Shown here: positions 26,861 through 59,207 of the stretch, in pieces
How positions within the stretch are numbered: the stretch's first letter is position 1
Layout of the letters: the number at the start of each line of letters is the position of its first letter
The notes under the pieces: model-generated
Seen by the model: the letters and a program-made list of their open reading frames with translations, nothing else
Databases searched by the model: none
Told to the model about the DNA's origin: nothing
Assembly (NCBI GenBank): GCA_002748755.1
Contig: PDTD01000020.1
Coordinates: 1-63,366, forward strand
Source: Desulfobulbus propionicus
Lineage (GTDB): Bacteria > Desulfobacterota > Desulfobulbia > Desulfobulbales > Desulfobulbaceae
Direction: 5' to 3'
DNA length: 63,366 nt
Translations under genes and position numbers: made by a program

Positions 26861-27080
26861 TGTGAATCTCTCATCAGCTCAGGTGGTGCCAGATGCAACC
26901 TTCTTGGCAGGGTATGAGAGCCCCCTCTTTTTGCTGTCAAAACAATGAGGAAGCTGGTGCCGCTTGGGGCTGGTTTTTGGTACATGTTTTGGAGATATTG
27001 GCTATACAATCGTTTTCTTGATAAATGATTGTTTTTATATTGTATTTTAATTTTCTCTATATGTCCATGAGCAATTCGGG
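26861..27080 (+). repeat. Dispersed 220-bp IS1380-like miniature element, copy E
   Basis: It runs from TGTGAATCTCTCATCAGCTC to TGTCCATGAGCAATTCGGG and is bordered by perfect 4-bp direct repeats CTCT at 26857-26860 and 27081-27084. The sub-terminal arms CAGGTGGTGCCAG and CTGGTGCCGCTTG can pair. It lies between the divergent ferredoxin-nitroreductase and srkA genes, where it could alter both promoters. Confidence 0.8.
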
Positions 27081-27337
27081 CTCTTCTTGCTTCAGGCTGC
27101 CCTGAATGCAGGGAGATTGGAAGACTGGGAGTGTTTCGCCTTAGTATCTACCCCGAATGGGGAAAGAAAACCAAGAAAGAGTTACCCTGTCATCAGGAAT
27201 CTGATACGCCTGCAGCGCTGGCGCTACCAGTGCCTGGAGTTTGAACTCCCCCTGCTCTGTCTCAACTGCAGGTGAAGGAAGGGTGCCAGGCGCGCAGCCT
27301 GCAACTGCATAAAAATTCGATATCAAGAGCGGTAAGA

Positions 27338-28378
27338 ATGAGAGAGAACAACCCGTTGATCCCAGACGATCATGCCGGAGATCAACAGAGGGATAGGCAG
27401 ACGCAATCTTTGTTTCAAAGCCTTACCCCGGAGAACATCCTTAATGCGGCCGAGGACTTTCTGGGTAGGTATTTATCCAACCTTTGCCGGCCGTTGAACA
27501 GTTATATTAATCGCGTCTACGAATTGGAAGACGAAGATGGAGAGGGGCTTATTATCAAATTCTACCGGCCTGGACGATGGGCCGGGGAAGCAATTCAGGA
27601 AGAACACGATTTTCTGCTGGAGTTGGCTCGGGGTGAGGTGCCGGTGATCCCGCCCTTTTGTGGTGGAGACGGCAGGACCTTGGGCAGACTGGAGAACATC
27701 TCTTTTGCCCTGTTTCCTAAAAAAGGGGGACGATACGTTGATGAGCTGGATCACGAGCAATGGGGGATGCTGGGCCGACTCCTGGGGCGAGCCCATATGA
27801 TAGGAGCTGACAGACCCTGCTCCCATCGACCTGTCCTTCACCCTGAGCGATCCACCCGCTCTCATGTAGGCTACATTCTGGAGAGTGGACTTGTTGCCGT
27901 AGACCTGGAAAGGGAATATGAGCAGGTCGTATCAACCTTTATTGAGATTGCCGCCCCCATTTTTGAACAAGTCGAACAAATTCGTATCCATGCTGACTGC
28001 CATTCAGGGAACCTAATTTTCAGGCCGGGAGAAGGGTATTGCCTGATCGACCTGGATGATATGGCCATGGGCCCCCCGGTACAGGATTTCTGGATGCTCC
28101 TGCCCGGGGATCGTTTGCAGTCGCAGTCAGAGCTCAATGCACTGCTTGACGGGTACGAGATTTTTCGGGATTTCGACTACACCAGTCTTCGGCTCATAGA
28201 ACCGTTGCGGGCTATGCGTTTTATTCATTATACCGCCTGGTGCGCTTATCAGATGCATGCCGACGGCACGGCCGCCCTTGTCCCGGATTTTGCAACCCGG
28301 GAGTACTGGCTCAAGGAAATACGGGATCTGAACGACCAGATGCAGATCATCCAGGGTGAGCAGGAAAGAAGGTTATGA
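27338..28378 (+). CDS. srkA: Stress response kinase A-like Ser/Thr kinase
   Basis: A 346-residue protein of the YihE/SrkA branch of the aminoglycoside-phosphotransferase-like kinases. The ATP-binding part reads RVYELEDEDGEGLIIKFYRP with the lysine in IIKFYRPGRW; the catalytic loop is IHADCHSGNLIF and the metal-binding aspartate is in LIDLDDMAMGP. SrkA counters programmed death under stress in E. coli by phosphorylating proteins. The start at 27338 (MRENNPLIPD) is preferred over a frame extending to 27272, whose extra residues do not look like the family. The 3' end overlaps the convergent exonuclease gene by six bases. Confidence 0.9.
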   Translation: MRENNPLIPDDHAGDQQRDRQTQSLFQSLTPENILNAAEDFLGRYLSNLCRPLNSYINRVYELEDEDGEGLIIKFYRPGRWAGEAIQEEHDFLLELARGEVPVIPPFCGGDGRTLGRLENISFALFPKKGGRYVDELDHEQWGMLGRLLGRAHMIGADRPCSHRPVLHPERSTRSHVGYILESGLVAVDLEREYEQVVSTFIEIAAPIFEQVEQIRIHADCHSGNLIFRPGEGYCLIDLDDMAMGPPVQDFWMLLPGDRLQSQSELNALLDGYEIFRDFDYTSLRLIEPLRAMRFIHYTAWCAYQMHADGTAALVPDFATREYWLKEIRDLNDQMQIIQGEQERRL

Positions 28379-29038
28379 GTCGTGGCTGAAGGGTGGAGTG
28401 TCATCGGCAATATCGCCATGATGTATCTCCATGAGCCTGCTGTATACAGCTCTGCTGATCCAAGCATCGGTGGCTGCATACCTGATTTGCTTTGCGCTCA
28501 GGTCTGGGGCTGCCCAGTTGGTGGTTCGGACACTTTTTGAGATACGTATACCCAAGGTGACAGCAGCCAGGCCCCGCAGACCGTGGTGCTGCATGCCCAG
28601 GTGCCTGCTGATATCGGCGAGGTCTATGAACCCTTGGGGCAGAAAGGGGTGTATCTGTTGCAGTTGGACCGTGTCAAAGCCTACTGCAACACCTACTTTT
28701 ATTGTCTGTTGGTTGCTGAGGATATCCGTAAGCGCTTTGGGGATGCCCAGCTGGTACAGCTTGAAAAGAAAGACGCTTTGACCGTCAGCAAGCTGGAGAA
28801 GAGCAGGAGGGTATGATTGTCCCTTACGGAATGTGGGCCGGGTTTCTGTGTCAAAGCCAAGTAGGTTGGTTGTACGCAAGGTTTTCACCGCAGCCTGCAG
28901 TTGGGTTTGGTTGCTGACAATATGGATGGGGCCTTCCCATCTGGCCAGGGGTAAGGCATTGATTTCCTCTTTCTTCAGCCGAACCAATAAGTTCCGGAGG
29001 GACTTGCCGGGTATCTGATGGGTTTGAGGAGAGTGCAT
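28373..29038 (-). CDS. RNase D-like 3'-5' exonuclease (DEDDy)
   Basis: A 221-residue soluble exonuclease with only the catalytic DnaQ/RNase D-type domain and no HRDC domains. The DEDD residues appear in LLGFDTETRPTF (D and E), VGVAVGFDTVQL (second D) and IRYAATDAWISR (Y-x3-D, the DEDDy form). Such short proteins degrade or trim RNA or single-stranded DNA from 3' ends; the substrate is not known from sequence. It converges on srkA with a six-base overlap. Confidence 0.88.
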   Translation of the reverse strand: MHSPQTHQIPGKSLRNLLVRLKKEEINALPLARWEGPIHIVSNQTQLQAAVKTLRTTNLLGFDTETRPTFRKGQSYPPALLQLADGQSVFLFKLYQLGIPKALTDILSNQQTIKVGVAVGFDTVQLQQIHPFLPQGFIDLADISRHLGMQHHGLRGLAAVTLGIRISKSVRTTNWAAPDLSAKQIRYAATDAWISRAVYSRLMEIHHGDIADDTPPFSHDS

Positions 29039-29211
29039 AGAGATCGTACCGGTATGGTGCCAGGGTTGGAGTTGTTGTACATGGCCGTTTTGTTAGGGGT
29101 GTCCGAGTGCAGGAGCACGGAATAAAACCGTACCGTGCTCATTCTGTAAAGTTTTTTTTCTCCCTGTATTTTTTAACTACCAGCAGCCCGGCTGCGGATG
29201 CCATGGGTGTT

Positions 29212-29253
29212 GCTAGCAGTGTACCCTAGACCCCTGCTAGCCCGTTTTTTTCT
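29212..29253 (+). terminator. Possible rho-independent terminator
   Basis: GCTAGCAG pairs with CTGCTAGC around a 14-base loop and is followed by CCGTTTTTTTCT. No plus-strand gene ends directly before it, so it may belong to the decayed repeat or act as an attenuator for the downstream operon. Confidence 0.4.
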
Positions 29254-29299
29254 TTGAGCAAAAAAAGATAAAAGCAGCTCTATGATCCAAGCAGAAGAG

Positions 29300-29351
29300 G
29301 TGATTAAAAAACGTCGAACCTGGCTCAACCTGAGCTGATGAGAAATCCGGG
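29300..29351 (-). repeat. Dispersed IS1380-like repeat, reversed partial copy G
   Basis: On the minus strand it reads CCCGGATTTCTCATCAGCTC then AGGTTGAGCCAGGTTCGACG, matching the left end and the first sub-terminal arm of the 220-bp family (for example TCAGTTCAGGCGGTGCCAGG at 43072). The other end was not found. Confidence 0.55.
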
Positions 29352-29457
29352 CTAGTTTGGCAGGGTTAACGTTCCTCCTTTTGGTCGAGGTTTGCACTTC
29401 AATTTGCCGCAGATTCTGGTGGTAGACAAGAACAACGCCTCCCGTTGCTTTTTATAA

Positions 29458-31320
29458 TTGAAAAAGTTTGTACCCGGAATAATTGTTACGATGTACAATT
29501 GTTTGCCTTTCCTCAAAATCCAAGCTGGAGTACGTTTTTTGAACCCGACAAATATAGATAATCCTGAATATTTTCATAAGGTTATAGATTGCCAGTATGC
29601 CTGTCCAGCACATACGCCTGTGCCAGAGTACATTCGTCTGCTGAGTGAAAAACGCTATGATGATGCCTACATGGTCAACTGGAGATCCAATGTTTTTCCC
29701 GGTGTCCTGGGGCGAGTTTGTGATCGTCCCTGTGAACCCGCCTGTAGAAGAGGGCGGGTGGAAAAGGAACCTGTAGCCATCTGTCGGTTGAAACGACTGG
29801 CTGCAGACTATTGCTCACCGGATATCGCAAAACGATTTCCGGAAATTCCAAAGAAAAAGAATGGCTGGAAAATAGCTTTGATCGGCGCAGGTCCCGCATC
29901 GTTGACCGTCGCCCGTGACTTGCTGCCCTTGGGCTACACTGTTGATCTTTACGATGATCAGGCAAAAGGGGGCGGCTTCATGCGGAGCCAGGTACCGTCT
30001 TTTCGTTTGCCCGAAAAGGTACTGGATCAGGAAATCGAACAGATTCTCAATATGGGTGTGCATACAGTCTTCAACACCTATGTTTCCTCCATGCAGGCTT
30101 TCCTGGAGAAAAAATATGATGCCGTTTTTGTGGGAACCGGTGCCCCCAGGGGGCGGGATCTCCCTCATTTGCCTGGCAGAAAAGAGGCTGATGCCGACAT
30201 CCATATCGGTATAGACTGGCTGGCCGGAGTGGTTTTTGGGCATGTGCAGAGCGTGGGCAAAAAGGTGCTGGTCATTGGTGGCGGGAACACAGCCATGGAC
30301 TGTTGCCGTACAGCACGACGCATGGGCGGAGAGGATGTCCGTATTGTTGTCCGCAGCCCACAGGCCGAGATGAAGGCATCACCTTGGGAAATTGAGGATG
30401 CCCTCCATGAAGATATTCCGCTGTATGATAATCACGTTCCCAAAGAATTTGTGGTCAAGGAAGGGCAATTGACCGGGATGCTTTTTGACAAAGTCACTGC
30501 ACAATATGATGACCGGGGGCGCCGGAAGTTGGTGCCCTCAGGGGAACCTCCGGTGTTTATGGAATGCGACGAGGTGCTTTTGGCCGTTGGCCAGGTGAAC
30601 TCTTTTCCCTGGATAGAGAAGGATCTTGGTATTGCGTTTGATCAATGGGGATTGCCGGTGTTGAATGAGGCCACTTTGCAGTCTACGCTCCAACATGTTT
30701 TCTTCGGCGGTGACGCGGCTTTTGGACCCAAGAACATCATTACTGCCGTCGCCCACGGCCATCAGGCGGCCATCTCCATCGATCTTTTTCTGCGCGGCCT
30801 TCCGCTCGAGAACAGGCCTGCACCCCATGTTCAATGTGCTGGCCAGAAGATGGGGATTCACGATTGGCTGTATGACAATTGGGTCAGCGAGGAGGAGCGA
30901 CGGGTGGTTCCCACTGTGGACAAGGTAAAAACTTTGAAGGATAGGCTCGTTGAAGTGGAGTTGGGATATGACAGAGAAGTGGGACATACCGAGGCTCTGC
31001 GCTGTCTCAATTGTGATGTACAGACCGTTTTTTATTTTCAGGAGTGTATAGAATGCGATGCCTGCGTGGACGTCTGTCCTGAAAAGTGCATCAATTTTGT
31101 TTCCAATGGAACCGAGGAAGAGATCCGTTCACGCCTGCTGGCGCCTGCCCTGAGGCTTGATCAAGGGCTATATATATCCAATCTGCTGCCCACGGGCCGG
31201 GTCATGGTCAAGGACGAGAATGTCTGTCTGCATTGCGGTCTTTGTGCAGAGCGGTGCCCGACTTCGGCATGGCAGATGCAGAAGTTTTTATATCATTCGC
31301 CACAGGCGGGACAAAAATGA
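29458..31320 (+). CDS. GltD-like FAD/NAD(P)-Fe-S subunit of a 2-oxoacid:ferredoxin oxidoreductase
   Basis: Up to 620 residues. The N-terminal Fe-S domain has CQYACPAHTPVPEY and GRVCDRPCEPACRRG, as in glutamate synthase small chain and dihydropyrimidine dehydrogenase. FAD binds at IALIGAGPASLTVARDLLPL and NAD(P)H at VLVIGGGNTAMDCCRTARRM. The C-terminal part carries two ferredoxin-like clusters, CIECDACVDVCPEKC and CLHCGLCAERCP. It should pass electrons between pyridine nucleotide or another carrier and the oxidoreductase encoded next. The TTG at 29458 gives the longest frame; the ATG at 29491 is a likely alternative. Its stop overlaps the next start as ATGA. Confidence 0.85.
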   Translation: MKKFVPGIIVTMYNCLPFLKIQAGVRFLNPTNIDNPEYFHKVIDCQYACPAHTPVPEYIRLLSEKRYDDAYMVNWRSNVFPGVLGRVCDRPCEPACRRGRVEKEPVAICRLKRLAADYCSPDIAKRFPEIPKKKNGWKIALIGAGPASLTVARDLLPLGYTVDLYDDQAKGGGFMRSQVPSFRLPEKVLDQEIEQILNMGVHTVFNTYVSSMQAFLEKKYDAVFVGTGAPRGRDLPHLPGRKEADADIHIGIDWLAGVVFGHVQSVGKKVLVIGGGNTAMDCCRTARRMGGEDVRIVVRSPQAEMKASPWEIEDALHEDIPLYDNHVPKEFVVKEGQLTGMLFDKVTAQYDDRGRRKLVPSGEPPVFMECDEVLLAVGQVNSFPWIEKDLGIAFDQWGLPVLNEATLQSTLQHVFFGGDAAFGPKNIITAVAHGHQAAISIDLFLRGLPLENRPAPHVQCAGQKMGIHDWLYDNWVSEEERRVVPTVDKVKTLKDRLVEVELGYDREVGHTEALRCLNCDVQTVFYFQECIECDACVDVCPEKCINFVSNGTEEEIRSRLLAPALRLDQGLYISNLLPTGRVMVKDENVCLHCGLCAERCPTSAWQMQKFLYHSPQAGQK

Positions 31321-33125
31321 AACCGATTGCAAGCATCAATGATTGTGTGGTTCAATTTGCCAATATCAACGGATCGGGATCTGCCAGCGCGAACAATCTG
31401 TTTGCCAGGGCGGTATACCGGATGGGGGTATCGGTCAGTCCGAAAAATATTTTTCCTTCCAATATCCAGGGCCTGCCTACCTGGTATGAGGTGCGGATAA
31501 ACGACCAGGGGTATACCGGACGCAGGGGAGATGTGGATATGGTGGTGGCCATGAATGGTCAGACCATGCGCCAGGATTATGAGGGGTTGCTTCCAGGCGG
31601 TTATTTTGTCTATGACTCTTCCCGTCGGCTTCCTGATGATTACAAGCGTGAGGATGTGGTTGTCATAGGCCTGCCGCTGACCACCTTATGTCGTGACGCC
31701 TTTGACAATCCCCGCATGCAGTCCCTGCTGAAAAACATCGTCTATGTGGGAGCGCTGGCCTACCTGCTGGATATGGAATTTGGGGTGCTGGTTGCATCTG
31801 TGGAAAAACAGTTTCAAGGCAAGGCTGCATTGTTGGAGTCCAATCTCAAGGCTCTCCAGATGGGCTATACCTATGCAGGCGAGCACCATGCAGGTGTCTG
31901 CCTTCTTCGAGTCGAACGTCGGGACAGGGTCGGAGATGCCGTCTTGATGGGAGGCAATACTGCAGCAGCCCTGGGAGCAATCTATGGCGGGGCAACCGTG
32001 GTGGGCTGGTATCCCATCACGCCATCAACTTCTGTCATTGAATCCTTTGCTCAATACGCCCAAGAGCTGCGTACCGAGGAGGACAGTGGCCGGATAAAGG
32101 CTGCCATAGTGCAGGCAGAGGATGAGTTGGCTGCCCTGGGGGTTGTAATCGGGGCAGCCTGGAACGGCGCCCGCGCCTTTACTGCCACCAGCGGCCCGGG
32201 AATATCCCTGATGAGTGAATTCCTCGGTCTGGCCTACTATGCAGAGATTCCAGCTGTTTTGATTGATGTGCAGCGAGCCGGTCCTTCCACAGGATTGCCG
32301 ACCAGAACCCAGCAGTCTGATTTGTTGTGCTGTGCCTACGCCTCCCACGGCGACAGCAAGCATGTCCTGCTGTTTCCAAGTACGCCGTACGAGTGTTTTC
32401 AGATGACGGCCGATGCCTTTGATCTGGCCGATCGATTACAAACACCGGTCATTGTCCTCTCTGACCTGGACCTTGGTATGAATGAACATCTGAGTCCCCC
32501 TTTACACTGGGATGATAACCGGGTCTACGATCGAGGAAAAGTCCTGGACGAGGAAGCACTGCTGCAACTGCAAAAACGATGGGGGCGGTATTTGGATATG
32601 GACAATGATGGCATCTGCTATCGAACCTATCCAGGGACCAGTGATCAGGTCGGAGCTTATTTTACCCGGGGTTCAGCCCATGATGAATATGCCGTATACT
32701 CGGAAGATGCTACGGTATATGAACAGAACATGCAGCGCCTGGTGCGTAAGATGGAGGCCGCTGTCTCCCTGCTGCCGGAGCCTGTCCCTTTCGGTGATCG
32801 GCAGACAAGCAAAACAGGACTGATCTATTTCGGCACCAGCAGGCATACGGCAGAGGAATGTCTGGATAGGCTCAGCAGACAGGGGATCTGTATACATGGC
32901 CTGCGCGTGCGTGCCTTTCCCTTTCATCAGGACGTGAGCGAGTTTATTACCCGGCATGAGCGGATTTTTGTCCTGGAACAGAACAGGGACGGCCAGCTTC
33001 GCACCCTGCTGCTTGATACGTGTGGGGCTCCACCGGACAAACTGGTATCCATTGTTTGCTATGACGGGCTCCCCCTTGCATCAAGAAGGATATACAAAGC
33101 ACTGCTGGATGCTGTTCAGCAGTGA
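31317..33125 (+). CDS. 2-oxoacid:ferredoxin oxidoreductase, fused gamma-alpha subunit
   Basis: A 602-residue cytosolic subunit. The first 190 residues are the gamma domain (FANINGSGSASANNLFARAV, then GYTGRRGDVDMVVAMNG). The rest is the alpha (pyrimidine-binding) domain, with GNTAAALGAIYGGATVVGWY, PITPSTSVIES and FTATSGPGISLMSEFLGLAY. The gamma-alpha fusion order is typical of 2-oxoglutarate (KorA-type) enzymes. The start at the ATGA overlap (31317) is chosen; an upstream extension to 31233 would overlap the previous gene. With the next gene it forms the catalytic core converting a 2-oxoacid and CoA to acyl-CoA, CO2 and reduced ferredoxin, probably 2-oxoglutarate. Confidence 0.9.
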   Translation: MKPIASINDCVVQFANINGSGSASANNLFARAVYRMGVSVSPKNIFPSNIQGLPTWYEVRINDQGYTGRRGDVDMVVAMNGQTMRQDYEGLLPGGYFVYDSSRRLPDDYKREDVVVIGLPLTTLCRDAFDNPRMQSLLKNIVYVGALAYLLDMEFGVLVASVEKQFQGKAALLESNLKALQMGYTYAGEHHAGVCLLRVERRDRVGDAVLMGGNTAAALGAIYGGATVVGWYPITPSTSVIESFAQYAQELRTEEDSGRIKAAIVQAEDELAALGVVIGAAWNGARAFTATSGPGISLMSEFLGLAYYAEIPAVLIDVQRAGPSTGLPTRTQQSDLLCCAYASHGDSKHVLLFPSTPYECFQMTADAFDLADRLQTPVIVLSDLDLGMNEHLSPPLHWDDNRVYDRGKVLDEEALLQLQKRWGRYLDMDNDGICYRTYPGTSDQVGAYFTRGSAHDEYAVYSEDATVYEQNMQRLVRKMEAAVSLLPEPVPFGDRQTSKTGLIYFGTSRHTAEECLDRLSRQGICIHGLRVRAFPFHQDVSEFITRHERIFVLEQNRDGQLRTLLLDTCGAPPDKLVSIVCYDGLPLASRRIYKALLDAVQQ

Positions 33126-33167
33126 AAAAGCAATACCAAGAACTGTGCCGCAGCAAGGAGATTTTAG

Positions 33168-34220: not shown

Positions 34221-34392
34221 GGCATGCTGCACCGTGCAAGCTGGATTGCGCTATGAGAGAGGCACCCTTGTGGGGAGCCGTCGGACAGTGGGGTAAGCCT
34301 GAGATATTCACACCGCCTTCTTTTTGATCCTGTAGACCAAAGGGTCATGAACAAACAGGCTCTTCCCTATCGGGGATTCAGACCCTATTTAG

Positions 34393-34613
34393 CCCGGTTT
34401 TTTCATGAGCACAGGCGGCGCCAGAAGCATGGTTTTTTAGCAGTGCATGCGAGTATCTTCTCTTTGCTGCCAAAACATTGTCAGAGCTGGTGCCGCCTGT
34501 GCTGAGCGTTGGTACACGTTGTACCAAAATTGGTTACATAATCATTTTTTTCACTCGGATTGTTTTTGGAGTGTATTGTTGTATTCCTGCAAACTGTTCA
34601 TGAAGACTTTGGG
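34393..34613 (+). repeat. Dispersed 221-bp IS1380-like miniature element, copy D
   Basis: Left end CCCGGTTTTTTCATGAGCAC, right end TGTTCATGAAGACTTTGGG. Perfect 4-bp direct repeats TTAG flank it at 34389-34392 and 34614-34617. Arms CAGGCGGCGCCAG (34412-34424) and CTGGTGCCGCCTG (34487-34499) form a 13-bp stem with one mismatch. The right-hand TTAG contains the stop codon of nhaB (TAA on the minus strand), so the element inserted on the stop and the duplication kept it. Confidence 0.85.
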
Positions 34614-36236
34614 TTAGAGGAAGAAATAGGTAGACACTAGACCGACCACTGACATAATGATGGTGTATGGTAGCGCCAGGTACACCATTCGGCCGTAAGA
34701 AAGCCGGATGACCGGAGCCAGCGCCGAAGTCAGCAGGAAAAGGAAAGCAGCCTGACCGTTTGGCGTGGCCACACTCGGAATATTGGTGCCTGTATTGATT
34801 GCTACGGCCAGTTTATCGAAATGGGTCATAATTTCCTTGGCCTGTTCTGCCGCCGCCTGGGGAAGGGCTGCGAGGACTTCACTTCTGGGGATATGGGAAT
34901 CAGTGAGCCTGGCCATCAAGTCCGCCCCGCTTATGCCGATATCGGGAATCGCGGCCAACTGTTCCACAAAGTGAATTTTGGTTTCGGTGATATAGACCGT
35001 AGCCACGAAGACATTGTCTGAAATCATGGAGAGGAGACCGTTTGCGATGTAATAGGCCCCAAGCTGGCTGTGCCCTTCCAGACTGAGGACATAATCTATG
35101 ACCGGTTTAAACAGGTGCTGGTCGTGGATGACGGCCACAATGGCAAAAAAGACGACCAGCAGCGCAGTAAACGGCAGGGCCTCTTCAAAGGCTTTGCCGG
35201 TCTGGTGCTCGGCAACGATGCCAGTGAGTGAGGTCAGTAGCACGATAACGGAAAGCCCTATGAGACCTACTGCTGCCAGATGAAAGGCAAGCGCGATAAT
35301 CAGCCAGATGCCAACCAGTGCCTGAATAATCAGTTTAGCCCGGCCTACATGGCCGCGCTGTTGCTCCATGGCAATTTCTGTCTCCAGAAGGTGGGAACGA
35401 ATGTTTCCTGGCATTTCAGCCCCATAGCTGAACCATTTTTTCTTTTCCAGAAAAAAGCAGGTGAGTAGACCAAAGACAAGCACAGGCAGGGATACAGGGG
35501 CTACCTCGATAAAAAAAGAGGGGAACGTCCAACCCATTATGTGGCCGATGAGCAGGTTCTGCGGTTCACCCACCAGGGTACACACACCACCAAGGGCTGT
35601 ACCCACAGCACCGTGCATCATCAGGTTACGGAGAAAAATTCGAAATTGACGAAGTTCTTCCCGCTCTGTTTCCTGAGCCGCCAGGTCACTGGTCAGGTCG
35701 TGGCTGGTATGCGGGTCTTTCCCTGAGACATATCGGTGGTACACGTCATAGAAGCCGTAGGCAACGGCTATGATGACAGCGGTGACGGTCAGGGCATCAA
35801 GAAAAGCCGAGAGAAAGGCGCCTGCAAAGCAGAAGAGCAGAGAAATAATGATTTTAGACTGGACCCGAACCAGGATACGGGTGAAGGTAAACTGTAGGAA
35901 ATCCTTCATGAAAAAAATGCCAGCCACCATGAAGATCAGTAGCAGAATGACCTCAAAATTGTTGAGCGCTTCATGGTAGACGGTTTCTGGATGGGTCATT
36001 CCCAGGGCTACAGCCTCGATGGCAAGCAGACCTCCTGAGGGGAGGGGGTAGCATTTGAGGGCCATGGCCAGGGTGAAGATGAATTCTCCGATCAGTATCC
36101 AGCCGGTAACAAAAGGGCCGATCGTATACAGCAGTATGGGGTTGATGACAAGAAAAGCGATGATGGTAAGTTTGTACCATGTGGGAGCGTTTCCCAAAAA
36201 GTTTTGGCCAATGGCCTGCGGTATTGATTTGGGCAT
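34614..36236 (-). CDS. nhaB: Na+/H+ antiporter NhaB
   Basis: A 540-residue inner-membrane antiporter that exports sodium in exchange for protons, controlling internal pH and sodium. It begins [20 protein letters not shown], the typical NhaB start, and has 11-12 hydrophobic spans. Conserved stretches include [40 protein letters not shown] and [20 protein letters not shown]. Length is near normal (E. coli 513). GGAGAA lies just before the ATG at 36236. The stop codon coincides with the border of the dispersed repeat at 34393-34613, and two more copies lie upstream of its start. Confidence 0.95.
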
Positions 36237-36320
36237 GTGTATTCTCCTGGATAAAAAAGGAAACTATATGTTCTTTCAGGGGGCGGCGGCCCCCTGAAAG
36301 TGGATAACGTGTTTAGCTAG

Positions 36321-36539
36321 CCCGGATGCCTCCTTTGTTCAGGTGGTGTCAGGTTCGGTAGTTTTTGGTACTTCATTATAGGTGGGAATATGTGTTGCCA
36401 AAACACCGCCGAAGATGGTACCGCCTGGGCTGATTTTTGGTGCACAGTTTACCGAAATTTGAGTCTGCTCACGAACAGCACACCCATCTTTCTTTGTCTT
36501 TTTTTTCAAATAAGACAAAATGTTCATGAGAAATCCAGG
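36321..36539 (+). repeat. Dispersed 219-bp IS1380-like miniature element, copy A
   Basis: Runs from CCCGGATGCCTCCTTTGTTC to TGTTCATGAGAAATCCAGG. Flanks are CTAG and CAAG, one mismatch from a 4-bp direct repeat. The sub-terminal arms are AGGTGGTGTCAGG and TGGTACCGCCTGG. It lies 85 bases upstream of the nhaB start. Confidence 0.8.
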
Positions 36540-36743
36540 CAAGAGGCCAGATTCAAAAAATAGGAGGCGCGGATAATAGAAAAGAAACGTACAACGCACA
36601 GTTCAAAAAGCAAGGCCAAAGTAACTCTGACGACAATTCAACACAACGAAAGGTTCTGGTTGACCATGAACTGAGCAAATCTAGTTTGGGGAGCGGATAG
36701 CACCTATATACCTATGGAATGGGATTTATCTTGTAGCAATGCG

Positions 36744-36964
36744 CCTGGATGTATCCTCAGCGCAGGTGGTGTCAGGTTCGGTAGTTTTGGGTACCTCATT
36801 ATAGGTGGGTATATGTGTTGCCAAAAAATTGTCGAAGATGATACTCTCTTCACTGACCTTTAGTGCACATTTTGTTGTAATGTTAAATCGATCACGGACA
36901 TCACATATAACTGTTTGTATGTATTTCTATTCAAATGACACAAAATGTTCATGAGAAATTCAGG
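36744..36964 (+). repeat. Dispersed 221-bp IS1380-like miniature element, copy B
   Basis: Runs from CCTGGATGTATCCTCAGCGC to TGTTCATGAGAAATTCAGG, in the same orientation as copy A and about 200 bases from it. The left arm CAGGTGGTGTCAGG is kept but the right arm has decayed (GATACTCTCTTCACTGA). Its right end lies 31 bases before the start chosen for the transglutaminase gene, so it occupies that promoter region. Confidence 0.8.
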
Positions 36965-36995
36965 TTAGGAATTCAGGTTTATGATGGGAGAATCA

Positions 36996-38453: not shown

Positions 38454-38461
38454 GGCCCCAT

Positions 38462-39259: not shown

Positions 39260-39260
39260 C

Positions 39261-43058: not shown

Positions 43059-43277
43059 CCCACCTTTTCTATCAGTTCAGGCGGTGCCAGGTTCGGCGGC
43101 CTTGGGCAGCCCATTCTACTTGGGGCTATGTGTTGCCAAAATACTACCGAAGACGGTGCCGCCTGGACTGACCTTTGATAAACATTTTGTTGGAATGTGA
43201 CATTACACAAGACAAGCACATCCATCTGTTGTTCTCACTTCATTCGAATGAGACCAAATGTTCATGAGAAATCCGGG
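43059..43277 (+). repeat. Dispersed 219-bp IS1380-like miniature element, copy C
   Basis: Left end CCCACCTTTTCTATCAGTTC, right end TGTTCATGAGAAATCCGGG. Arms CAGGCGGTGCCAGG and CGGTGCCGCCTGG pair well. Flanking bases CTCT and CCAT do not match, so the duplication has decayed. It splits the sigma factor gene from the anti-sigma gene. Confidence 0.8.
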
Positions 43278-44240: not shown

Positions 44241-44339
44241 GTTCCCTCTTTTTGTCGTAGTTTTCTTGATTTTTCCCCAGTCAAGAGCTTTTTGTATTGT
44301 AGTATTGTATTCCTATAAAATGCGGATGAGAAATCCGGA
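44241..44339 (+). repeat. Right half of a dispersed IS1380-like repeat, copy H
   Basis: The segment ends GTAGTATTGTATTCCTATAA then AATGCGGATGAGAAATCCGG, aligning with the right half of copy D (GTATTGTTGTATTCCTGCAA then ACTGTTCATGAAG). It begins just upstream of the sigma gene start and lies between that gene and the divergent lipoprotein gene. The left half is missing or replaced. Confidence 0.55.
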
Positions 44340-48597: not shown

Positions 48598-48599
48598 CT

Positions 48600-50504: not shown

Positions 50505-50626
50505 TCAAGGTGTTGGATTGTTCGTACAGGGTGGCGGCTTCCGCTTAGCCCAGATTTTGGTTGCTGGATGCACTGGCAGAGGCATGCACCATTACCCTGG
50601 TCAACTCCTACGGATGCGGTCGGAAA

Positions 50627-51478: not shown

Positions 51479-52529
51479 GTTGGCTTTCCTGTTGTTTCCA
51501 CTCAGCAGGGCAAGCGGAAACAAAGCTGTTTATGTATTGGTTTGAAACCGGATTTCTTAAAAAAAGCTTGCACGGATCACGGTGCAGGGCGTGTATCTGC
51601 AAGCGTCCTGCAAGAAAGAGCCTGCGGACAAGCCTTGTGACCTCAAGAGGACTGTTCTGCTTGTGGATAAACATCAGTCACTCTTTGGGTCGTACAACAT
51701 GGAACCCTGAATGCCAAGAGGATGCAAACAGGTTGCCTCATCAAGCAGGAAAGGCAGGAGAAATGCTATGTGCACTCTGTTTGCTTACCCGGATACAGGG
51801 TATTTGTCAATTTCTTCCAGGAGGAACACATCTGAAAATGGTGAGGGCAAGACCATCAGAGCGGCCATGATGGGGCATGTCTGGTAACCGTGTACCTGAT
51901 TGAGGGATGAGGCATTGATGCGGTCGTTCTCTTTTCCTGAAGCGCAACAGGGGTAAAGACGTCATTTACCTTGCATGACCTGTTGCCTTGCTTATTCTGG
52001 TGCACCAACATAGGCCATAAGATGCGGCTCTTTTGTGGGGCCGCCAATGGCGGCAGGTATGATTCCCGCAGGAGATGAACCCGAAGACCCTTGCTCGCTC
52101 AGGGTATATCCATCTGCTTGGGCAGTGGCCAGGTTTGTAGGCATCAGCAGCCAGAGTCATGGGGGGAGCCGTGGACTGGTCAGCGTATTGTCGGATTATG
52201 CTCACTTGAATATCCCATGAGCATTGGGTCTTGTTTGAGAAAAAAACACACAAAATAATACATTGATGAGCTGCTCCGTGAGCAGGCTCAAACTCCGGGA
52301 AAATGTTCCCCACCGCCATGAGAAATGTGAGCTGGCCCGGAAAACTGCGCTTGCCACAATCTGGAACACAGTGCGCAGGTATTCAAAGGGCGTAAGAAAC
52401 CGTCATGATGCTATCCCCATGAGTACCTGCAATATAAGATAGAGGGTCAGAGCTTTCTTTGACTTTTGTTGCATTGTTCCGCAATCTGTTGGTTCCGTCA
52501 AAGAGAGCCCGACCCTTTTGGTGGCAGAA
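51479..52529. other. Longest gene-free stretch (about 1 kb)
   Basis: No frame here has a recognisable family signature or a good ribosome site with coding-like composition. A stretch at 52240-52345 has weak similarity to the ends of the dispersed repeat (CATGAGAAATGTGAGC). It also carries the upstream region of cbiK on the minus strand; a cobalamin riboswitch was not recognised. Confidence 0.45.
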
Positions 52530-53540
52530 TTATTGGATATCGCCGTTCTTATCCGACTCAAGGGCCTGTTTTCCTCCCTGAGCCTGTTCCATGGCCTCCA
52601 TGGAAGTCTCTTCCGGTTGGGGAGCAGGGGTGGGAGCATAGTGTTCAGGCGTTTTGCCAGCCAGTTGTTCAAGCTGCCAGGTCGGCACCTTGAACAGGTT
52701 CTTGTGTCCTGTCACCTGTAGTGTGTAGTCACCCTCCTGTTCAGGCTTGAACAGAGTGTAGACCTGTTCAGAATCCTTGCCATACTGTACAGAGAATTCC
52801 AGCGCCGGGGTTGCCAAGCCTTCTTTTTGAGCCTCATCCGGGGCAAGGATACCTTCGATGCTGATGGTGTTGAGGGTGTTGAGCAGGGCATTGACCTCTT
52901 CCTGCAGGGCGGGGGTTTGAGCGCCCTCTTGCTCAATCAGCCAGGCGTTCTCTTTTTTGAGCAGGGAGAACTCCTTAAAGTCGATGCGATGCACCGTGTT
53001 CTTGTCTATTTGAACAAGAGTTTTGTCCAGCCAGTCTTCCGGGGTACTCCCAAAGTCGAGGGTGCTCAGATTCACGGTAATGACTTCCCGGCTGTTTTCC
53101 GTTCTGGCATGGCTTTTTCGTAAGCCGGCGGCAGAGCCTAGGTAAAAGCCTGCCACCTTCTGTCCCTCACTGTGCAATGCTACATGACGTTCAAAGTCGT
53201 CATCAGCCACGTGGAAACGTTGCAGACCAGATTCGCTGGTGGCGACAGCCAGACCCTGCCGGGCGTCAGTGATGTTTTTGAGTATCTTAGCAACCTGATT
53301 TCCGTTGGCGTCTGCATTGAAATAATCAGGGAGAATCCACTTCCCTCCCTCTCGGATTAGGCGTACCGTATTGCCTTCTCTGCCGACCACGATGAACTGA
53401 TCAAGGTCATACGTATCCACGGACACAAAAGGAGCATCTGGTGTAAAGGCTGCGTATTGGGCTGCTTTCATTCGCAGGTTGATGGTAAACCCTATCTGGG
53501 CAATCAGTAACACAATGGCAGGAAGTATTATTTTGTTCAT
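52530..53540 (-). CDS. DUF4340 domain protein of a Gld-like ABC operon
   Basis: A 336-residue protein. It has an N-terminal membrane span (IILPAIVLLIAQIGFTINLR), then repeated beta-rich DUF4340 units: RLIREGGKWILPDYFNADAN, HRIDFKEFSLLKKENAWLIE and QEEVNALLNTLNTISIEGIL. The C-terminus is Pro/Glu-rich. DUF4340 proteins commonly follow GldG-type genes and lie outside the cytoplasmic membrane. It overlaps the upstream gene by four bases (ATGA), showing translational coupling. Function unknown; likely a partner of the extracytoplasmic GldG-like domain. Confidence 0.85.
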   Translation of the reverse strand: MNKIILPAIVLLIAQIGFTINLRMKAAQYAAFTPDAPFVSVDTYDLDQFIVVGREGNTVRLIREGGKWILPDYFNADANGNQVAKILKNITDARQGLAVATSESGLQRFHVADDDFERHVALHSEGQKVAGFYLGSAAGLRKSHARTENSREVITVNLSTLDFGSTPEDWLDKTLVQIDKNTVHRIDFKEFSLLKKENAWLIEQEGAQTPALQEEVNALLNTLNTISIEGILAPDEAQKEGLATPALEFSVQYGKDSEQVYTLFKPEQEGDYTLQVTGHKNLFKVPTWQLEQLAGKTPEHYAPTPAPQPEETSMEAMEQAQGGKQALESDKNGDIQ

Positions 53541-56446
53541 GCCTGCTCACCTCCATTGATACGTGCAATCAGTTGGGCATAGTGCCTTTGAGACCGTTTT
53601 TGCAGGACTTGGGCGCAAAACCAGACCAGCAGCAGGCCGATACAGGCCAGACCGTAGTTAAGATATTCCCAGAAAATTCGCATATTCTTGTTCAGGGGTG
53701 CCAGAGGTCGTGAGAAGTGGCTGCGACCCCGAATGCCAAGCAGAGCCCGGTCCTCCAAAGACCAGTCGATGGTGTTAGCCAGGACCTGTACGGGGGCGAG
53801 GTTGTTGGTGCGCATCACGCTGGCGCCGATATTGAGCACCATATCCCTGAGAAAACTGTTAGAGGCAAAGATGATGATGCGGGCAGAATCAACGGATTTG
53901 TCCACCTGCCGACTGATAACCTGTTTGGCTTCCTTTTCTTCGGTCTGCTCTGAAGCAGGGGGCTGTTGCTCTTCCGAAGAATCCTGTTCCAGCAGCGGAG
54001 AAGGCTTGCCGATAAAAAAGGAAGAGAAGCGCCCCTCAATGCTTGCCGCAAGGAGGTATCTGTCTTTTTCCTCTCCCATGGGAAATCCTGCTTTGCCATA
54101 ACGCTCAAAATCAGGCTGCAGGTTGGTGTCGTTGCTCAGCCAACTCTTGGCAGAACTTCTCAGCAGAGGTGTTACGGTCCGCTCTTTGTTCTGGTCTGCA
54201 TCGATAAGTATGGGTGATGCCCAGTTGAGTGTTACCTGGGGGATGCCGCTGAGAATATCGATCTGGTTTCCGCCTGTTTCGGGGCGAATATCAACAAAAA
54301 AAGGATAGTTGACCATATGGGTTTCTTGAATGGTAAAACCGCCCACGTTGCGTTCCACCGGTATCGGAAAGGCGCTGTTTTTAGGATCGAGTACCATGGC
54401 TTTTTCAATGGTGATGCCCTGGAATTTCAGCCATTCTTCAAGACCGGAGGTGTGCTCGGAGAGCAGCAGACCGCCCTGCAGATCAATGCTGTATGGTGAG
54501 GTGGCCAGTACCACGGTTCCCCCCTGCATAAGGAATTGGTCCATGGCAAAGAGCTGTTTGTCATTGAGTTGGTCGGGTGCGATAATCATGAGCAACTCCG
54601 CGTCAGCGGGCACCTGGCCGGTGTTCAGGTCAGCTTGGGAAATGACATGCTCCTGAGAAAGGAGTTCGCGTACCATATTGAACTGCGGTCCCCGGGCAGG
54701 CATGCCGAACTGCGCCATGGCCGGTGCGGCAAAGGGTGTGCTCAGGACGACGGTCTTGGAGAAGCCTGCTGCAAAACGCTTGAGTCCTGCCTGGACAGCT
54801 CGTTTGAGACTTTCCTTCTCGAGATCCTCGGGCAGGGGGATTTCGATGGTCTGTTCCCCGCTCTTGGCCACCATGTAGAACCAGAAGGTGTTGGTGCCAA
54901 ACAGGCTAGCTGCCATGGGGCGGAATCCATACTCTTGTGTCAACTGGTCAGCGATTTTGCCGTTTTCTGTTTCTGGATCAACCATGGCCACCTGGAGCTG
55001 GTCCCCCACCTTCTGCTGCATTGCAGCGAGTATCTGTTGCAGGTCTGCCTTGAGAGCAACCAGTTCTGCCGGTAGGCGGTTGTCCGGTGAGATGTAGCCG
55101 GTGAAGTTGACCGGATGATCAATGCCTGCAAAAATATCGCCGCCGCCCTGATAGGTATAAAGGACTTTCTTTATGGCCCTGGTGATGTCGTATTCGGGGT
55201 TTCGCAGCTCCACATCCATATCCTGTTCGCTGCGGACCTTGACTTCTATTAGGTCACGGAAGCTCAGGGTCTCAAACTGATCCCCATACCGGATAAGGAT
55301 ATCGAAATAGGAGTTGGTGACCGATGCCTGATATTTACTCGCAGTCTGGAAAGGGATGGGGCGGATGCCGTATTTTTGTCCCGCCTCCTGTTCCAGTTCC
55401 GGGTTTTCCAGGGGATCGACAAATTCTACCCGGACCTTTTTACCGCCAACAACCCCGTATTCTTCCAGTAGATCCTGCAGACGCGGGACCAGGGGGGCCA
55501 GCAGCGGGTGGGTTTGGGCGCTGAAATAGCCGCGGATGAGCAGTGGTTCTTTGAGCTGCTCCAGATAGCTGCGGGTGGCATCGGAAATAGAGTAGATCCG
55601 TCCCTGGGTGAGGTCCGCGCGCAGATTACCCATGGAAAAAAGCCAGAAGTTTGCAGCCACAAAGTTGGCCATGACCAGGATGGTCGCCAGCTGCCACATC
55701 TTGTGGTGGACATTTGGCTGGTTATTGCTCCAGCGGATTTGTTCCAGGCCGTACAGGTTGAGAGAGAGGAAAAGAGCGGTAATGGAGAGATAATAATACA
55801 GATCGCGCAGATCAATAACCCCTCGAGTTATGGAATCAAACCTGGAGCCTGAGCCAAGGAGCTGGAGGAATTCTGTGCTCTGGTTGCCAAAAAATGCCAG
55901 CAGGGTATCTGAGCCGATCAGGTAGAAAAAACCGCATACCAGGACCGTGACAATCAAGCTGACAATTTGGTTGCCCGACTTGATACTGACAAACAAACCG
56001 ATGGCAATATAGGCGGCAGCCAGAAACAGGGTGGCCACATAACCGCCCAGTACTGGCCCCCAGTCCAGATCGCCCAGAAAGCCAACCGTAAAGGGCAGAG
56101 GCAGTGTCAACATCAGGGAAAGAACGACCAGAGCGAGGCAGGCGAAAAATTTACCCAACGTCAGGCTCAGGGGGTTGACCGGTGCGGTCAGCAGGAATTC
56201 CAGGGTACCTGCCCGGTGCTCTTCGGCCCACATCCGCATGGTCACCGCTGAGGTGAGAAAAATGAGCAGGATGGGCATCCAGGAAAAGAGAGGCCGTATC
56301 TCTGCGATGTTTGAAGAAAAAAAAGTTTCTACCCAGAAGAATATAAATAAGTTGATGCCCAGAAAGGCCCCTATGAATAGATAGGCAATGGGTGAGCTGA
56401 AAAAGGTTGCGAATTCTTTTTTGGCAACTCGAAAAATTGTCTTCAT
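53537..56446 (-). CDS. GldF-GldG fusion: ABC permease joined to extracytoplasmic GldG-like protein
   Basis: A 969-residue protein. Residues 1-245 are an ABC-2 permease (AKKEFATFFSSPIAYLFIGA, RMWAEEHRAGTLEFLLTAPV) with six spans, equal to GldF. After a further span (ATILVMANFVAANFWLFSMG) the rest is GldG-like (ABC_transp_aux): RADLTQGRIYSISDATRSYL, LLIRGYFSAQTHPLLAPLVP, and a Rossmann-like part near 640-690 (DAELLMIIAPDQLNDKQLFA). A last span precedes the C-terminus. In Flavobacterium GldF and GldG are separate and needed for gliding; in other phyla the role is unknown. AGGAGGA precedes the ATG at 56446. Fourteen bases after the ATPase gene. Confidence 0.85.
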   Translation of the reverse strand: MKTIFRVAKKEFATFFSSPIAYLFIGAFLGINLFIFFWVETFFSSNIAEIRPLFSWMPILLIFLTSAVTMRMWAEEHRAGTLEFLLTAPVNPLSLTLGKFFACLALVVLSLMLTLPLPFTVGFLGDLDWGPVLGGYVATLFLAAAYIAIGLFVSIKSGNQIVSLIVTVLVCGFFYLIGSDTLLAFFGNQSTEFLQLLGSGSRFDSITRGVIDLRDLYYYLSITALFLSLNLYGLEQIRWSNNQPNVHHKMWQLATILVMANFVAANFWLFSMGNLRADLTQGRIYSISDATRSYLEQLKEPLLIRGYFSAQTHPLLAPLVPRLQDLLEEYGVVGGKKVRVEFVDPLENPELEQEAGQKYGIRPIPFQTASKYQASVTNSYFDILIRYGDQFETLSFRDLIEVKVRSEQDMDVELRNPEYDITRAIKKVLYTYQGGGDIFAGIDHPVNFTGYISPDNRLPAELVALKADLQQILAAMQQKVGDQLQVAMVDPETENGKIADQLTQEYGFRPMAASLFGTNTFWFYMVAKSGEQTIEIPLPEDLEKESLKRAVQAGLKRFAAGFSKTVVLSTPFAAPAMAQFGMPARGPQFNMVRELLSQEHVISQADLNTGQVPADAELLMIIAPDQLNDKQLFAMDQFLMQGGTVVLATSPYSIDLQGGLLLSEHTSGLEEWLKFQGITIEKAMVLDPKNSAFPIPVERNVGGFTIQETHMVNYPFFVDIRPETGGNQIDILSGIPQVTLNWASPILIDADQNKERTVTPLLRSSAKSWLSNDTNLQPDFERYGKAGFPMGEEKDRYLLAASIEGRFSSFFIGKPSPLLEQDSSEEQQPPASEQTEEKEAKQVISRQVDKSVDSARIIIFASNSFLRDMVLNIGASVMRTNNLAPVQVLANTIDWSLEDRALLGIRGRSHFSRPLAPLNKNMRIFWEYLNYGLACIGLLLVWFCAQVLQKRSQRHYAQLIARINGGEQA

Positions 56447-56459
56447 GCTGTGTTCCTCC

Positions 56460-57389
56460 TTACCGTGCGCTCAGCTCTGCAAAAACTGTTTCCAGGGTTC
56501 TGGTCTCAAAGTGCATCTGGTAGAGTTGCCAGTCGTTTTCTAAAACCTTTTGTGCAATCAGCGCGGCCAGCTCATGTGGGTCTGTCTTGTCCCCGAGATT
56601 GACGGCATGGGCATATCCTTTTCCTTTCTCCGGTACGCTCGATTGGATAGACTCAACACCGGAAAGCACGCTGATTGAGTCGGTAAATTTTTGTGCGTCT
56701 GCGGATGTCTCGACGAGCAGGGTCCTCCCGGATTGGAGTTCGTCCAGTCCTTTGTCCAGGACTTTGCAGCCGTCTTTCATAATAATGACACGGTCGCAGA
56801 CCGCCTGGACCTCCTGCAGAATATGGGTGGAGATAATGACGGTCGCCTCGCTGGCCAGTTCCCTGATCAATGCCCGCATGTGCTGAATCTGGGTTGGGTC
56901 AAGACCGTTGGTCGGTTCATCAAGAATGATGATTTTTGGCTTGTGGAGGATGGCCTGGGCAACACCTGTTCGCTGCCGGTAACCACGGGACAAGGTTGAG
57001 ATCGGCTGTATGGCTTTTTCCATCAAACCCGTCTGTTTGAGCACCCGGCTGATAAGGGTTGGCCTGTCGTGGAAAGGAATGCCATGCAGAGCGGCTGAAT
57101 AATCCAGATAATCAATAACATGCATTTCTGGATAGACAGGGCAGTTTTCAGGTAGGTACCCGATCATGGATTGGATTTTTTTACGGTTGGGGCCAATATC
57201 TTTTCCGTTGATGACGATGCTTCCGGTTGTTGGTTCCAGGTATCCAGTGAGCATTTTCATGATCGTCGTTTTTCCTGCGCCGTTGTGACCGAGCAGCCCG
57301 ACGATTTCTCCTTGTGATATGGAGAAGGATACATCGTCAACGGCCGTGCAGTCATCATAGGTGCGGGTCAGGTGATCAACTTGAATCAT
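56460..57389 (-). CDS. ABC transporter ATPase, GldA-like
   Basis: A 309-residue ATPase. Walker A is GHNGAGKTTIMK, signature LSRGYRQRTG, Walker B IIILDEPTNGLD, and the switch histidine is in IISTHILQEVQA. The C-terminal domain of about 90 residues (LLVETSADAQKFTDSISVLS) is the typical extra part of GldA/DUF4162-like ATPases. The start at 57389 (MIQVDHLTRTYDD) is chosen for AAGGAG eight bases upstream; the frame runs further up without family similarity. It heads a three-gene operon with the GldF-GldG fusion and a DUF4340 protein. Confidence 0.92.
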   Translation of the reverse strand: MIQVDHLTRTYDDCTAVDDVSFSISQGEIVGLLGHNGAGKTTIMKMLTGYLEPTTGSIVINGKDIGPNRKKIQSMIGYLPENCPVYPEMHVIDYLDYSAALHGIPFHDRPTLISRVLKQTGLMEKAIQPISTLSRGYRQRTGVAQAILHKPKIIILDEPTNGLDPTQIQHMRALIRELASEATVIISTHILQEVQAVCDRVIIMKDGCKVLDKGLDELQSGRTLLVETSADAQKFTDSISVLSGVESIQSSVPEKGKGYAHAVNLGDKTDPHELAALIAQKVLENDWQLYQMHFETRTLETVFAELSAR

Positions 57390-57753
57390 AAGCTGGTTCT
57401 CCTTGGGTGAGTCTGTCCAATGTTTTTCAACATAGCTGTGTTGGGCTTCATGAAAGGGGTTGTCTGTTGCATGGAACGTATGGTAAGCGATCAGAACTGC
57501 CCCTTGGAGTTTTCTTACCATCGCGCACCTGAATGGTGTGGGCCTCGCCCTTTCTGGTGCTCCAATGGCAGAACGAACGATATGTCCTGTTTTCATGAAG
57601 GTATATTTGGATTTCCGGGGACACCCGGATTGGTACGTATTGTACATACAGCTGTTGGAATGTCAAGGGGGTCCGGGGGAAAAGATGTTCATTGCCAGTA
57701 CCTCTTGGAGCTGGTCAGAACCCCTTGGTCTTTTGGCAAGATAAGGAGCGTTG

Positions 57754-58656
57754 ATGACCACTCGAGAAAGTGTTACACCAGGCGGCGTGTGGTTGATTTT
57801 AGCCGCAGCCCTGCTTTGGGGAACAACAGGAACTGCCCAGGCTCTTGCGCCCTTCAGCGCCCATCCCTTATCAGTCGGGGCCGTACGGCTACTGATCGGT
57901 GGCGGTTTCCTGTTGCTGGTTTCCCTCGTGCGGGGCACTTTTGCAGGCCAGACCCGCTGGCCCAGAATGCTTGTGTTGCTGACTGCATTTTTCGTGGCCT
58001 CTTACCAGGGATGCTTTTTTCTTGGGGTCGCTCAAACCGGTGTTGCTGTGGGTACCATGACAGCCCTTGGCAGTTCACCAATATTTGCCGGTGTCCTGGA
58101 TTATTGCTTTAGAGGAGAGCGACCGGGTCTGTTGTGGGGCTCGGCAACAGGCATGGCTATCTGCGGCTGCCTTGTACTTGCCGTTTTCGGAGGTGAGGTT
58201 CAGGGTGGTTTAACCGGTATCCTCTTGGCCCTGGGAGCAGGGTTCTCTTATGCAGCCTATGCTGTGGGAACCAAAAAATTGCTGGATACCCATGCGGCTG
58301 AGGCTGTTGTCGCTTTGATATTTTCCCTTGGCGCAGTTTTGCTTATGCCGTTTTTCGTGTTTTTCGATCAGCACTGGCTGTTGAGTCCGGCAGGATTCCT
58401 GGTTGCACTACACCTTGGTCTGGTCACGACGGCGGTGTCCTATTGGCTTTTTGCAGCCGGTTTGAAACAGGTCCCCGTACGTATGGCTGCGACTCTGAGT
58501 CTTGCCGAGCCGGTGACCGCCTCTTGTCTGGGGGTATTGCTCCTCCACGAGCAACTGAGTCGTGGCGAGTGGCTGGGAGTTTCCATTCTTTTTGGCGGTA
58601 TCTTCCTGCTTATTGCCGGACCGTATCTTGTCTCTGTCTTTTGTATGAGAAAATAG
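57754..58656 (+). CDS. EamA-family (DMT) exporter
   Basis: A 300-residue inner-membrane protein with ten hydrophobic spans in two EamA repeats. The first repeat starts VWLILAAALLWGTTGTAQAL, the second GGLTGILLALGAGFSYAAYA. The family exports amino acids, purines or other metabolites. The ATG at 57754 is used because AAGGAG lies five bases before it. It stands alone, divergent from the Gld-like operon, and is followed by a good hairpin. Substrate unknown. Confidence 0.9.
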   Translation: MTTRESVTPGGVWLILAAALLWGTTGTAQALAPFSAHPLSVGAVRLLIGGGFLLLVSLVRGTFAGQTRWPRMLVLLTAFFVASYQGCFFLGVAQTGVAVGTMTALGSSPIFAGVLDYCFRGERPGLLWGSATGMAICGCLVLAVFGGEVQGGLTGILLALGAGFSYAAYAVGTKKLLDTHAAEAVVALIFSLGAVLLMPFFVFFDQHWLLSPAGFLVALHLGLVTTAVSYWLFAAGLKQVPVRMAATLSLAEPVTASCLGVLLLHEQLSRGEWLGVSILFGGIFLLIAGPYLVSVFCMRK

Positions 58657-58661
58657 TCTGG

Positions 58662-58712
58662 CCAGGTGGTTGCCTTTTTCAGGCAGCACCTGGTGAAGGC
58701 CTGTGTTTTTTC
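58662..58712 (+). terminator. Terminator of the EamA gene
   Basis: CCAGGTGGTTGCCT and AGGCAGCACCTGG form a strong stem with a short T-rich loop starting five bases after the stop; TGTTTTTTC follows 10-15 bases later. Confidence 0.55.
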
Positions 58713-58737
58713 ATCACCGGGCCTGTATTACCCCTGA

Positions 58738-58849
58738 ATTCGAATTTCTCATGAATATTTTGGTGACATGGGTCGGGTATTATTTACCAACTCATTGTTT
58801 TTGTGTTTTATTTTTTGCGTTTTCACGAAATGCTCAAGAGAAATTTGGG
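58738..58849. repeat. Short IS1380-like inverted-end element, copy I
   Basis: It starts TTCGAATTTCTCATGAATAT and ends ACGAAATGCTCAAGAGAAAT then TTGGGG. The two ends are imperfect inverted repeats of each other and match the ends of the 219-221 bp family, but the internal hairpin is absent and the length is about half. Confidence 0.5.
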
Positions 58850-58988
58850 GCGACGTCTGCAAGGGAGCAAAGTCTATCCCGTATTCGAGTGTGCCTTGTC
58901 TGCTCTGGTGGAGATGGCAATTATTTTGGATGACTTGCTGCAATTTGAGCAGTACAGTACGGTTTATGCCGAGGTTGAAGAGGCGTAC

Positions 58989-59207
58989 CCTGAATTCCTC
59001 ATCCCTCATCAGTTCAGGCGGTTCTAGATGTAACGGTTTTGGCAGTGCAGTAGAATGCTTTTTTGCTGTCACAACACTGCCGAAGACGCTGCTTCCTGTG
59101 CTGATTTTGGATATATTTTTGAGGAAAAGGATGAAAAAGGTTTACTTTGTAACCTCTTGTTTTTATATTATATTTTTATGCTTTCCACTGTTTGCCTGAA
59201 ATTCGGG
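58989..59207 (+). repeat. Dispersed 219-bp IS1380-like miniature element, copy F
   Basis: From CCTGAATTCCTCATCCCTCA to TTTGCCTGAAATTCGGG. The left arm is CAGGCGGTTCTAG; the right arm has decayed (GACGCTGCTTCCTG). Length equals the other copies. No matching flanking direct repeat is left. It lies 310 bases upstream of ilvE. Confidence 0.7.

Follow-up and report, generated by a model that had tools for sequence, protein, structure and literature searches.

A folded, non-coding miniature element of Desulfobulbus propionicus and its probable mobilisation by IS1380-family transposases

A family of 220-nt repeats is spread through the mostly intergenic sequence of a Desulfobulbus propionicus contig, and by its sequence features it is a transposon-mobilised miniature element (MITE): short, present in many copies, without a transposase gene, and bounded by terminal inverted repeats and a fixed 4-bp target duplication. 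We consider it very probable that a transposase of the IS1380 family moves these elements and that their interior is a fold conserved for spreading. The window analysed here is the entire contig (63,366 nucleotides; C26), part of a 2.0-Mb draft genome.

Six copies of nearly constant length had been proposed for the window from the letters alone. A structural model, R2, which was built from other genomes only, recovered all six on the plus strand, five of them with exactly the predicted boundaries: 26861-27080 (R2 positions 1-220, 86.5 bits; flanks CTCT/CTCT), 34393-34613 (71.2 bits; flanks TTAG/TTAG), 36321-36539 (113.3 bits, and with 171.8 bits the top score in the window with model R1), 36744-36964 (116.3 bits; 77% identity to the 36321 copy) and 43059-43277 (108.2 bits). 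The sixth, 58989-59207, is a degenerate full copy that scored 39.1 bits, its match beginning at 59003 and not at 58989. In their alignable parts the six are about 61-77% alike, and two of them carry the direct repeats (CTCT and TTAG) that had been noticed earlier. The proposed inverted ends proved to be inverted over 14 bases before they diverge; the consensus reads CCCGGATTTCTCATCAGCTC at its left end and, as reverse complement, CCCGGATTTCTCATGAACA at its right. As originally stated, the element codes for no protein: in the consensus of eight copies from the related genome G005, no stop-free frame exceeds 57 codons. The element thus encodes no transposase and is not an IS proper.

The shorter forms fared unevenly. 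Three predicted partial copies were found again, as a right-part fragment at 8525-8602 (plus strand; nhmmer 35.5 bits; predicted at 8541), a weak right-end fragment at 12379-12432 (minus strand; 18.6 bits; end site with 0 mismatches) and a left-part fragment with a CTAG flank at 29275-29350 (minus strand; 38.3 bits; predicted at 29300), and the short two-ended form expected at 58738 is a 111-base element at 58739-58849 (plus strand; R2 26.5 bits, E 0.003). What remained of the partial copy at 44241 was a right-end-like site at 44324-44339 (minus strand, 2 mismatches), and of the short form at 5181 an end-like site that differs at 1 position; a weak match to the left end lies close by, at 5096-5148 (plus strand; nhmmer 18.7 bits). 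A right-half fragment at 52208-52315 (minus strand; nhmmer 36.5 bits) was absent from the earlier list. The window also holds repeats of another kind, namely large inverted duplications (13506-13686 with 18799-18979, 87%; pieces of 16675-17159 with 20014-20443, 83-87%) and a direct repeat (1806-1889, again at 20497-20580).

Further copies in the genome, the outcome predicted for this check, were found in large numbers. The end pattern, with up to 2 mismatches, matched the genome 265 times vs 0 for the reversed pattern, and a sequence-only model gave at least 150 genome-wide matches, all at E 8e-28 or better. Iterated nhmmer searches of a 463,366-base sample (the window and 20 further stretches, each of 20 kb, picked after viewing the hit list) yielded 133 matches at E <1e-3, of which 59 come close to full length; together the matches occupy 110 distinct places and 3.9% of the bases. 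Median divergence from the consensus was 21% for 46 aligned own copies and median pairwise identity 59% for 59 own copies, and by this measure the copies of this genome are old. The eight G005 copies are 88-96% identical to one another. Both genomes are small, the own genome with 2.0 Mb at 91% completeness and G005, which carries the top-scoring copies, with 1.3 Mb at 68% completeness; the complete same-genus genomes G001, G003 and G006 have 4.8-5.8 Mb. Genome reduction together with an element burst is possible.

Location is mostly intergenic, 10 of 74 own matches lying mostly within an ORF of at least 120 codons. Relative to neighbouring genes in tandem contexts, the element had the same orientation in 13 cases and the opposite one in 24, and orientation was mixed in 37 copies from other genomes; no convincing orientation bias emerged from the own copies, the relatives or these 37 copies.

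The flanks of the copies point to transposition with a fixed target length. Among 55 full own copies, flanking 4-mers were identical in 8 vs 1.85 after shuffling, and none of 2000 shuffles reached 8; at other lengths, one copy was exact at three bases and none at five. In 27 fuller copies of the relatives G003, G004, G005 and G058 exact 4-mers occurred 16 times vs 3.9 (0 of 2000 shuffles), with three exact repeats at three bases and none at five. When 40 copies from 19 further genomes were analyzed, their ends being set by the best end-like site, 19 had exact 4-mers vs 5.6 (maximum of 2000 shuffles, 14). The insertion target is YTAR (CTAG, TTAG, CTAA).

Empty sites, the other expected mark of mobility, were present in relatives at three places, all read by eye from alignments. 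At the place equivalent to the 34393 copy the model search detected no element in G003, G004, G006 or G005; the stop region there has one TTAG in G003 and G004 and CTAG in G006, and leftward of the target these three genomes have diverged too far for an alignment. The remaining two sites come from G003 and G004, which are about 85% alike and show two reciprocal insertions within 500 bp. Their empty sites have the single tetramers CCAG and CTAC and the filled counterparts the diverged tetramers CTAG + CAAG and CTAA + CTAG, respectively, the insertion boundaries being judged by eye. Together with the further copies and the 4-bp duplications in the own genome and in relatives, the empty sites support the original prediction of a transposon-mobilised miniature element.

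The ORF at 34614-36236 (minus strand) has its stop codon within the right TTAG of the 34393-34613 copy; the element was inserted at this stop codon, and the 4-bp duplication preserves the stop. A general preference for stop codons was considered and found not convincing: 8 of 55 own copies touch a stop vs 58 of 639 (9.1%) free YTAR sites, which is near the expectation from the YTAR target.

We next consider the likely source of the transposase. At the edge of the contig (1-239, minus strand) lies the 5' part of an IS1380-type element that is truncated by the contig end. Its first 49 codons (1-147) match PF13701 with E 1.5e-8 and 33.8 bits, slightly below the curated cut-off of 34.7, and this short piece had no NCBIfam match; its end, CCTGCATTTCTCATAA at 224-239, is followed by TTAG. 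A possible decayed IS1380 transposase fragment is found at 25731-25820 (minus strand; E 3.2e-4; 53% identity over 30 residues). The contig-edge piece has relatives at 51 or more loci. In 12 of 31 IS1380 loci examined, inverted ends were accompanied by exact 4-bp duplications of CTAG, TTAG or CTAA; of the remaining loci one ran into a contig end, the flanks were unequal at two, and the rest showed no clear pair. A scan of three proteins from these loci identified each as an IS1380 transposase (NF033539).

Ends of both partners were found in two genomes, G143 and G026, and in both the IS1380 and MITE ends vary together and share the target; the IS genes there are split or broken. G143, a single contig, carries two IS1380 copies with the ends CCCGGATTTCTCATCA and CCCGGATTTCTCATTA and the duplications CTAA and CTAG, along with MITEs ending in, e.g., CCCGCATTTCTCATCA and CCCGGATTTCTCATGA. 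In G026 the IS1380 end is CCCGCATATTTCACAG with CTAA and the MITEs have CCCGTATATTTCACAA, and the variant ATATTTCA is common to both. The G026 transposase gene is interrupted by a stop, and that of G143 (L283, L285) is divided between overlapping frames of 284 and 202 codons, the two copies being 96.8% identical; a programmed frameshift would explain the split, as would a break common to both copies. No intact IS1380 element with matching ends was detected in the own-genome and same-genus assemblies examined; the own genome yielded only IS1380 relics and the contig-edge piece, and ten IS1380 loci of G001, G003, G005, G006 and G058 (L055-L064) had no matching ends apart from one loose match at L064. 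Of 12 carriers searched for PF13701 three had it, among them one of the nine that come from elsewhere in the phylum. Two exact-pattern scans of viral contigs gave no matches. The ends, the duplications, the empty sites and, in two genomes, the matching IS1380 end variants are directly visible; from them we infer the transposition reaction, and the MITE is likely mobilised by an IS1380-family transposase.

The element is also folded. The predicted layout consists of a 12-pair end stem, a 36-pair hairpin 1 in which some mismatches persist, a very small hairpin, and hairpin 2, whose 12-pair base involves the right end of the element; the internal pairing of GGCGGTGCC with GGTGCCGCC noticed at the outset exists and lies within the 36-pair hairpin. 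Pairing was evaluated in a sequence-only, almost gap-free alignment of 16 elements (set A5), one per genome and 46-80% identical, which were selected after viewing folds; 12 of 52 elements were left out of the folding set for their weak or altered ends. In this alignment 95.0% of 960 cells were paired vs 83.0% (SD 0.7) after shuffling, which leaves the relatedness among sequences in place, 36 of 60 pairs had changes on both sides vs 20.3 expected, and the covariation score was 0.419 vs 0.186. With slid partner positions only 37-43% of cells paired, a comparison that is biased towards the structure, since the prediction was made on these very sequences. One copy per genome was then picked at random from 23 genomes, eight times, with the dropped rows included and a new prediction for every draw; this gave 91.5-94.1% paired vs 79-81% and 33-38 pairs with double change vs 20-24; the result was upheld with all 67 copies taken together. 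Some opposite positions are often mismatched: of the 16 elements none pairs at columns 33/94, 2 pair at 13/114, and 6 each at 32/95 and 22/105. Under the modelled structure the hairpins covary across genera, and that distant relatives have maintained the fold by paired changes suggests a role for the shape itself.

The copies of the own genome behave differently. RNAalifold predicted no pairs from 46 of them, and the paired fraction was 0.812 observed and 0.812 expected from independent columns for the end stem, 0.750 vs 0.745 for hairpin 1, and 0.694 vs 0.660 for hairpin 2 (z 4.1; all pairs z 3.7), an excess in hairpin 2 that two subfamilies may explain. A first reading from these copies, that the fold is irrelevant, was overturned by the aligned intact copies of other genera. 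Since compensatory changes keep the fold between genera and the decayed own copies show little covariation, the fold probably serves the spreading element and is needed during spread. Rfam, searched at gathering cut-offs and at E up to 1, recognised only a tRNA and no element in the window, and gave three matches in 22 element loci (12 + 10), all far under gathering scores. A 236-nt form in L123 (G003), L142 (G004) and L234 (G143) has about 17 extra nucleotides like AGGTAAGCGCAGACTCC; by eye, these belong to the upper part of the left arm of hairpin 1, and L234 shows such a stretch lower on that arm, as reverse complement.

Which strand is selected can be judged from the wobble pairs. In the 16 genomes 55 G.T vs 18 A.C cells were counted in columns picked by Watson-Crick pairs only (p 1.7e-5 if cells are independent), G.T exceeding A.C in 13 genomes, with the reverse in one (G166) and ties in two. 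Among pairs common to both strands' predictions the excess was weaker (27 vs 16 in 36 sequences, 4 of the 40 elements retained for folding being left out here), and there hairpin 2 had 2 G.T vs 5 A.C; deviations from the paired consensus positions in own copies comprised 300 G.T and 258 A.C. Whole-strand alifold predictions differed strongly (-70.5 vs -16.6; similar in random draws), but a prediction made on one strand gains from the wobble pairs of that strand, and we therefore rely on the strand-neutral 55/18 count. The G.T excess suggests selection on a single-stranded form of one sense, most likely RNA of the plus strand as modelled here; single-stranded DNA is a possible alternative that would likewise favour G.T over A.C.

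The sequence model detected the family in 25 of 257 genomes of the order, representing 9 of 69 genera and two families, with 8 candidates scored per genome. In a phylum sample the structural model, with 5 candidates scored per genome and without decoy control, detected it in 10 of 395 genomes including the own one. The other nine carriers fall in eight families, and ten elements from them have, as read by eye, the same fold layout, most with other ends: L271 lies between TTAG tetramers, L275 has TGAA, L272 and L277 have the 5-bp repeats AAAAT and TTTAA, and L278 has no clear element boundary. These ten rows lay outside model building, and 90% of their cells were paired vs 61% after shuffling; the alignment was fitted to the model, and this fitting is biased towards the structure.

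Altogether, we propose that full-length IS1380 elements supply the transposase to the MITE, that this enzyme would recognise the ~14-bp end repeats CCCGGATTTCTCAT, and that the 220-bp element would thereby be inserted at YTAR with duplication of 4 bp. Its interior would be a conserved fold needed while the element spreads, aiding or controlling transposition or softening the harm of insertion; the form under selection would be a single strand of one sense, most likely plus-strand RNA, and inserted copies would then decay with little structural constraint. Identity of ends and target with IS1380 would equally be expected if the MITE were simply an IS1380 deletion derivative with a roleless leftover interior and accidental palindromes. 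We regard this as quite improbable: R2 had no match in 40 IS loci (many cut short) except for a MITE beside the IS relic L204, nor in 13 others (L282-L289, L291-L295), and the fold covaries between genera, the 16-genome pairing test disfavouring accidental palindromes.

Covariation has a competing source of its own, because template switching, i.e. DNA-level correction of imperfect palindromes, would also yield matched changes without function. That the stems were kept in this way and not by selection seems unlikely to us: facing mismatches persist (33/94 pairs in 0 of 16 elements, others in 2-6), G.T exceeds A.C, and the decayed own copies should be corrected as well, yet show little sign of it. 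A host-recruited regulatory RNA (terminator, leader or mRNA stabiliser) kept at each site would fit the intergenic location, with 10 of 74 own matches mostly in an ORF, and the folded transcript, but the inconsistent orientation (13 same, 24 opposite; mixed in 37) and the little structural constraint on own copies once inserted make it very unlikely indeed. Mobilisation by IS1380, with a fold that serves spreading, is thus the reading we prefer. A wider reading is held only tentatively, namely that the element is a mobile structured RNA, with one fold and recurring internal-loop residues, carried through the sulfate-reducer phylum within exchangeable transposon ends; these ends might be of the IS1380 kind with YTAR 4-bp duplications in one order and of the CCTAAATTGAGCG type with 5-bp repeats elsewhere. 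If true, the RNA would bind the transposase or a host protein, controlling where or how often the element moves.

MITEs are usually regarded as passive leftovers. Here two phases are separated, with strong compensatory evolution among intact elements across genera and little among decayed copies, so the question whether a non-coding transposon depends on a folded transcript, or a folded single strand, for its spread becomes testable; the named likely mobiliser and target, and G143 as a genome holding both partners, are a starting point for such a test.

The folded bacterial MITEs NEMIS/Correia and ERIC are likewise short, intergenic, palindromic and numerous; from their general descriptions, they are set apart by other ends and another length. 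IS1380 elements (PF13701, NF033539) share with the MITE the CCCGGATTTCTCA-type ends and the 4-bp YTAR duplications (12 of 31 loci), whereas the MITE has no transposase gene, an interior absent from the IS loci examined, and covarying hairpins. The eukaryotic piggyBac elements also use a four-base target, TTAA and rarely TTAG or CTAA, and IS1380 has served as their outgroup (PMC10813416). Our literature search, which did not cover the supplementary candidates of PMC11109978, found no published description of this MITE family. MITEs are well known, and structured mobile repeats with covariation are already a recognised class, 250 mobile or repeat candidates with covariation being counted in PMC11109978. 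The covarying fold and inconsistent orientation of the present element are those of the MRSC type, whose example MRSC-65-2 is described there as a multi-copy structured repeat of inconsistent orientation, thought to be selfish, for which the authors leave undecided which form is the relevant one, DNA or RNA. MRSC-65-2 is described as one long stem carrying a UYCCGG repeat (PMC11109978), whereas the MITE has an end stem and two hairpins, a known target duplication and a likely mobiliser.
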